From positions 1-40,072 of the forward strand of contig JALWZG010000098.1 in assembly GCA_027002825.1 (NCBI GenBank): a stretch of 40,072 bases of DNA, given 5' to 3'. The notes beneath the pieces are model-generated. The model did not search any database. It saw nothing but the letters and a program-made list of their open reading frames with translations, and had not been told where the DNA came from. Made by a program: the position numbers and the translations under genes. Positions 15,430-40,072 of the stretch are shown piece after piece. This DNA comes from Caldifarciminota bacterium. Lineage in GTDB: Bacteria; Hydrothermota; Hydrothermia; LBFQ01. The first letter of the stretch is position 1, and every line of letters begins with the position of its first letter.

Positions 15430-16881
15430 ATGCTGGTCAGGGACGATAGGGTCATCTTTGAAAAGCACAGGGAGGGGGGAAGCACCTTCCCGATACCGGA
15501 CTTTCCGGAGGAGGTGGACCTCCCCCCCGAATACCGTAGGGGTGTTGAGTTAAACCTTCCCGAGGTTCCGGAAAACGAGGTGGTGAGACATTACGTTCGT
15601 CTTTCACAGAAGAACTGGGGTGTGGATGTGGGTTTCTACCCCCTCGGTTCATGCACCATGAAGTACAACCCGAAGTTCAACGAGGACGTTGCCCGTCTTC
15701 CCCAGTTTACGGGATTACACCCGGCTTCTCCCCCTCACGTGGTTCAGGGTGCGCTTAGGCTGATGTACCACCTGCAGGAGTTCTTAAAGGATTTGACCGG
15801 AATGGACGGGGCCACCCTGCAACCGGTGGCGGGCGCAAGCGGTGAGCTGACGGGCATATTCATGATCAAGGCCTATCTCAAGCACGTTGGGGAGGGACAC
15901 AGGGATGAGGTTTTGATCCCGGATTCCGCCCACGGAACAAACCCGGCGACGGCCTCCATGGCGGGTTTTAAGGCGGTGGAGGTTAGGTCCAACTCCGACG
16001 GGACACTGGACGTGGAGGACCTGAAATCCAAGCTGTCCGACCGCACCGTAGGCCTGATGATAACCAACCCGAACACCCTTGGGATCTTTGAGAGGGATAT
16101 AAAGGAGATAACCTCTTTGGTGCATGAGGCCGGGGGGCAGGTGTACATGGACGGGGCGAACTTCAACGCCCTTATGGGCTGGGTTGATCTGGCCTCCCTG
16201 GGGATAGACGTGGTGCATTTGAACCTACACAAGACCTTTTCAACACCCCACGGGGGTGGGGGGCCAGGTGCTGGTGCCGTCCTGATGAAGGCCCACCTTG
16301 AGCCTTTCGCCCCTGTGCCTACGGTGGAGTACGATCCGGAAAGGGAAACCTATTTCCTCAACTGGGACAGACCCCTCAGTATAGGTAAGGTTCACGCCTT
16401 TTACGGACATTTCCTCGTTATGGTTAGGGCTTACGCCTACATACTCTCCATGGGAGGTGAGGGTCTGAAACAGGCGGCGGCGGACGCCGTACTCAACGCC
16501 AACTACCTGCGACACCTCGTTGAAGGGGATTACAAGGTGGCCTATAGGACCCGGAGTATGCACGAGTTTGTTATCACGGCGAAGGACATAAAGAGGGACA
16601 CGGGTGTTAGAACCTACGATATAGCCAAAAGACTGCTCGATTACGGTTTCCACGCCCCAACCGTCTACTTCCCCCTCATAGTTCCAGAGGCCATGATGAT
16701 AGAACCGACGGAGACGGAGACAAAGGAGACACTTGAGGCGTTTGCCAGAGCCTTAAAGGAGATAAAGAGGGAGGCCTATGAGAGGCCGGAGGTCCTAAAG
16801 GAGGCCCCTCACACCACACCCGTCCGGAGGTTGGACGAGGTAAAGGCGGCAAAGGCGTTGAAGGTGAAGTGGGGGGATTAG
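15430..16881 (+). CDS. gcvPB: Glycine dehydrogenase (decarboxylating) subunit 2
   Basis: FYPLGSCTMKYNPK, PDSAHGTNPATASMAG, YMDGANFNALMGW, HLNLHKTFSTPHGGGGPGAG. Confidence 0.96.
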   Translation: MLVRDDRVIFEKHREGGSTFPIPDFPEEVDLPPEYRRGVELNLPEVPENEVVRHYVRLSQKNWGVDVGFYPLGSCTMKYNPKFNEDVARLPQFTGLHPASPPHVVQGALRLMYHLQEFLKDLTGMDGATLQPVAGASGELTGIFMIKAYLKHVGEGHRDEVLIPDSAHGTNPATASMAGFKAVEVRSNSDGTLDVEDLKSKLSDRTVGLMITNPNTLGIFERDIKEITSLVHEAGGQVYMDGANFNALMGWVDLASLGIDVVHLNLHKTFSTPHGGGGPGAGAVLMKAHLEPFAPVPTVEYDPERETYFLNWDRPLSIGKVHAFYGHFLVMVRAYAYILSMGGEGLKQAAADAVLNANYLRHLVEGDYKVAYRTRSMHEFVITAKDIKRDTGVRTYDIAKRLLDYGFHAPTVYFPLIVPEAMMIEPTETETKETLEAFARALKEIKREAYERPEVLKEAPHTTPVRRLDEVKAAKALKVKWGD

Positions 16882-39673: not shown

Positions 39674-39762
39674 AACACGTCTATTCTAAGGGTGTCCGGT
39701 GTAGGTTTGGAAAAAAATAAAAAAAAGCCTTTCGGTAGGGTGGGAAGGGATGTTTACTCTGA

Positions 39763-40072
39763 AAAGGAGGTGTTCCAGCCGCACGTTCCCGTACGGCTAC
39801 CTTGTTACGACTTCGCCCCAGTCACCGGGCTCGCCCTCACCCCGCCGCAGCGGGGCTTCAGGCGCTCCCGGCTCCCATGGCGTGACGGGCGGTGAGTACA
39901 GAGCCCGGGAACGTATTCACCACCCCATAGCTGATAGGTGATTACTAGCGACTCCACCTTCACGCAGGCGGGTTGCAGCCTGCGATCCGAACTGGGGGCG
40001 GTTTTGGGGGATTAGCTCGGCCTCGCGGCCTCGCATCCCTCTGTGCCGCCCATTGTAGCGCGTGTGTAGCCC
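39763..40072 (-). rRNA. rrs: 16S rRNA, 3' end (partial; runs off right edge)
   Basis: Plus strand AAGGAGGTGTTCCAGCCGCACGTTCCCGTACGGCTACCTTGTTACGACTTCGCCCCAGTCACC ... CCCATGGCGTGACGGGCGGTG ... GCCCGGGAACGTATTCACC ... CATTGTAGCGCGTGTGTAGCCC; anti-SD CCTCCTT present. Confidence 0.98.

Follow-up and report, generated by a model that had tools for sequence, protein, structure and literature searches.

The window analysed here, a stretch of 40,072 nucleotides, ends within a truncated bacterial 16S rRNA gene whose 3′ portion departs from the E. coli sequence at three positions of helix 28 (h28, the neck), and the question it raises is whether these letters are real and, if so, what they do to a helix next to the decoding site. 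The gene fragment occupies positions 39763–40072 on the minus strand and matches RF00177 with 298.5 bits against a gathering score of 50 (E 2.7e-91, model positions 1211–1533), including the consensus structure. It comprises the last 310 nt of the gene, the 5′ side having been lost at the contig end. The sense strand reads GGGCTCTGTACTCACCGCCCGTC, and the 3′ strand of h28 (E. coli 1384–1396; 39895–39907, minus strand) carries all three substitutions, C1389U at 39902, U1390C at 39901 and A1396U at 39895, while positions 1397–1407 are canonical. A preliminary description of this DNA had reported the same bases from a by-eye reading, and both the bases (window sequence and RF00177 match) and the numbering 1389, 1390 and 1396, which we checked against an E. 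coli 16S, are confirmed. The anti-Shine-Dalgarno (anti-SD) sequence CCUCC is intact at 39766–39770 and is preceded by GAACA (1530–1534; 39771–39775, minus strand) at the Era-binding or 3′-tail site. Directly 3′ of the gene, a short inverted repeat with long T runs after it (39711–39739, minus strand; CCTACCGAAAGGCTTTTTTTTATTTTTTT), read by eye, is a possible, weak terminator. No 23S or 5S match was found by Rfam in the 39.7 kb downstream of the 16S (window 1–39762), and the rRNA genes look unlinked in this genome, a draft of 1.72 Mb in 113 contigs. Only two pieces of the 16S are assembled in the draft, positions 1–121 on contig C63 and the final 310 nt in the window. An extra copy of the 16S leader together with the first 52 nt of the gene lies on C63 (L161) at 15645–15696, some 820 bp before the proper start of the 16S (16467–16587), and then runs into unrelated sequence.

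Relatives of this genome carry the same letters. The motif TGTACTCACCGCCCGTC is present in 6 of 147 phylum genomes scanned, all from one GTDB family: the window's own genome (G000), G001, G002 and G005 of the same genus, and G006 and G007 of a sister genus, the last with the motif on two contigs. The full window letters GGGCTCTGTACTCACCGCCCGTC recur in the 16S of G002, G005, G006 and G007, and the G002 gene is 99.4% identical to the window 16S over their shared part. All seven assembled copies of the site that are attributable to the family (7/7) have the 1396 change, while other relatives, the sister family of the same order among them, read ACACACC. Because other family genomes carry the same letters, the substitutions are not sequencing noise; they are real and fixed across the family. 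Read-level error, which the preliminary description had allowed for along with the prospect of many canonical close relatives, is rejected since the change recurs in five further family genomes. The one canonical 16S binned with the family (L001), from the congener bin G003, was considered as a counterexample and set aside: its identity to the family 16S is only 73.6% and contamination of the bin stands at 7%, so the gene is taken as foreign and the bin as probably contaminated. G003 also holds an RbfA (L245) that looks foreign.

The substitutions are matched across the helix by partner changes. In the mature E. coli 30S subunit, U921–C924 pairs with U1393–A1396 (PMC12787274). The 5′ strand (921–933) lies outside the window, and both strands were read in the family members whose 16S gene is full, four in all (L026, L028, L029 and L030), L029 being read from local sequence at 921–932 and 1532, where the MAFFT alignment had misplaced it. 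Each of the twelve h28 pairs is standard in all four genes. U1396 faces A921 in every one (4/4), which flips the 921:1396 pair from U-A to A-U; G928A partners C1389U, changing 928:1389 from G-C to A-U; and U1390C, facing G927, changes 927:1390 from G.U to G-C. The compensatory structural context that the preliminary description had proposed to look for is thus present in h28, and helix 28 is conserved in structure in the family. The computed mature duplex has a stability of −15.6 kcal/mol in E. coli versus −16.1 kcal/mol in the family. We therefore favor, at a probability of about 0.94, reading these letters as a family-level set of compensatory h28 substitutions, as the paired strands suggest. 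Under this reading, the flip at 921:1396 and the changes at 928:1389 and 927:1390 would have arisen in the family ancestor. With pairing kept and stability nearly equal, the decoding site most probably functions as usual, and the changes are presumably neutral in function. The window's own genome, whose positions 921–933 are unassembled, probably has the same partners, judging from its congeners, one of them 99.4% identical. The family thereby illustrates the extent of change that the neck helix tolerates while remaining paired.

How unusual is this state? U-A is the state of the 921:1396 pair in E. coli and in the 24 relatives for which both strands could be read. Across 114 usable sequences, whose outside part consists of the matches listed by a pattern scan of genome contigs for the motif, the pair is U-A in 25, A-U in 89 and mismatched in none; the outside sequences were picked by U1396, so their agreement with A921 is conditional on that choice. 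Three sequences (L045, L075 and L101) were left out of this tally as misreads of the upstream pattern. The scan matched at least 119 contigs. Among the matches listed, almost all titles naming a group name Campylobacterota (Campylobacter, Helicobacter, Sulfurimonas and Sulfurospirillum) or Patescibacteria, with a few odd bins; L075 and L113 were rejected as chance matches outside 16S. The listed outside matches carry A921 wherever the 5′ strand is readable, with A-U at 921:1396 in at least 85 outside contigs, and a published Helicobacter 16S sequence prints TGTACTCACCGCCCGTC (PMC9232570). Campylobacterota (Campylobacter, Helicobacter and Sulfurospirillum) thus resemble the family in both the A921-U1396 flip and TGTACTCACCGCCCGTC. 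In Campylobacter (L076), by contrast, 929:1388 is A-U, both 928:1389 and 927:1390 are canonical and GAUCA is retained; it is at 928:1389, 927:1390 and U1532 that the family has changed. Patescibacteria (CPR) have the same flip, and some share GGAACA at the 3′ tail; their tails are often further degraded, many lacking CCTCC, whereas the family keeps the full anti-SD. A1396U is therefore normal in Campylobacterota and Patescibacteria, and the description of A1396 as almost invariant does not stand. Since the partner changes cancel the substitutions and U1396 is already normal elsewhere, the finding is mostly ordinary. What it adds is a lineage with a flipped 921:1396 pair in a phylum whose other examined 16S keep U921-A1396. 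The A928-U1389 and G927-C1390 pairs are rare, with 8 A-U and 9 G-C in the whole sample, the four family members included, and it is their combination with A921-U1396 that sets the family apart. Other class members (L019, L022, L024 and L027) have 930:1387 and 931:1386 swapped from C-G to G-C, and L011 and L015 have G-C for A-U at 923:1393; helix 28 drifts in other parts of the phylum too, by compensated steps.

A further change lies in the 3′ tail. Era binds a highly conserved GAUCA immediately 5′ of the anti-SD (PMC10582724), and the whole family has GAACA in its place (U1532A; window 39773 on the minus strand, L026, L028, L029 and L030), with the anti-SD intact; GGAACA also occurs in some Patescibacteria among the matches listed. 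An alignment of 26 Era sequences from different families, examined for a counterpart to U1532A, contained no column specific to the window's family (f1) by the criterion used. In immature E. coli 30S, U921–C924 is first paired to the 16S 3′ end, and its pairing with U1393–A1396 comes later (PMC12787274), and RbfA assists the conversion of this early h28 pairing (PMC9032327); the family's changes involve the same elements, namely 921–924, 1393–1396 and the 3′ tail. The alternative pairs in E. coli are probably U921:A1534, G922:C1533 and A923:U1532, the only obvious three-pair complement. Unlike E. coli, the family would form only G922:C1533, as A921.A1534 and A923.A1532 are mismatched and the complementarity of 921–923 to 1532–1534 is absent from its members. 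The best short alternative duplex is computed at −0.7 kcal/mol in E. coli versus +0.5 kcal/mol in the family. In the sample, residues other than U at 1532 occur only with U1396 (0 of 26 readable A1396 sequences), in the family (five, including the window) and in many Patescibacteria among the matches listed, an association weakened by shared ancestry and by the decayed 3′ tails of Patescibacteria. Lineages with A921 mostly retain A at 1534, the alternative partner; comparison across sequences therefore supports the mature 921 pair in them and not the immature one.

RbfA itself was not detected by TIGR00082 in any of the 11 uncontaminated genomes of the order examined (G000–G002 and G004–G011, all drafts), while 25 of 28 other class members have matches. 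A search of the same 11 genomes with a profile derived largely from RbfA sequences of the class likewise found none apart from an insignificant match in G011 (E 0.16), and reading the infB neighborhoods in the order revealed no evident RbfA frame. Era, IF2, KsgA and RimP are present in the order. RbfA is also unmatched in G040, G042 and G051, elsewhere in the phylum. The sister family, f2, has no RbfA match yet is canonical at both 921 and 1532, and the absence of RbfA therefore seems to precede the h28 change.

These observations bear on a second reading, which could hold alongside compensation: loss of the immature h28 switch in the family, with U921A and U1532A breaking the early pairing and RbfA gone. 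The switch and the role of RbfA as described for E. coli, the single alternative pair left by A921 and A1532, and the lack of an RbfA match beside detectable Era, IF2, KsgA and RimP are all consistent with it. It is nonetheless unlikely: the three alternative pairs are themselves deduced from sequence, f2 combines the lack of RbfA with canonical 921 and 1532, G040, G042 and G051 lack a match as well, and these drafts may contain a divergent RbfA or have left it unassembled. Campylobacterota, moreover, share A921 and possess RbfA. A causal link between the absence of RbfA and the h28 and U1532 changes is similarly doubtful, because that absence seems earlier and other phylum members are also without a match. 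Slightly less probable again is the fuller proposal of an order without RbfA, one family of which has rewired rRNA residues of the decoding-site maturation switch (U921A/A1396U plus U1532A), so that the small subunit would mature without the E. coli-type intermediate of h28 and the 3′ tail. Should the conjunction of no RbfA and GAACA hold, the dispensability of the h28 maturation switch becomes testable, and this side result may matter more than the h28 substitutions.

Compensation also accounts for the locus far better than the proposal of altered decoding or antibiotic resistance, A1396 being near the decoding center. Position 1396 does sit at the base of h28, adjoining the 1400 region, but with h28 pairing kept, the same A921/U1396 state normal in Campylobacterota and Patescibacteria, and 1397–1407 canonical, we consider an effect of this kind very improbable. 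Least probable of all is an error in sequencing, assembly or binning, or decay of the 16S into a pseudogene, for although the 16S sits at a contig end and the bin holds the stray 52-nt copy on C63, the motif recurs in five other family genomes with compensating partners wherever the gene is full, the 310 nt match the Rfam model with few mismatches, and the DNA immediately downstream of the 16S is common to congeners.

The substitutions have a modest practical consequence for amplicon surveys. The preliminary description had noted mismatches to primers 1391R and 1392R, and the family indeed has one to each, at the sixth and fifth base, respectively, from the primer 3′ end. Single mismatches also occur to 27F, 907R, 926R, 1100R and 785R/805R, and there are none to 341F, 515F-Y, 806R-B or 1492R. 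The accompanying suggestion that the lineage could be under-sampled holds weakly: it is conceivable only with 1391R/1392R and, through A921, with 907R/926R, but 515F-Y/806R-B and 1492R match perfectly. Any loss would conceivably be limited to the one-mismatch primers and be a matter of efficiency. Surveys with 1391R/1392R or 907R/926R thus face one internal mismatch in this family, and those with 515F-Y/806R-B face none.
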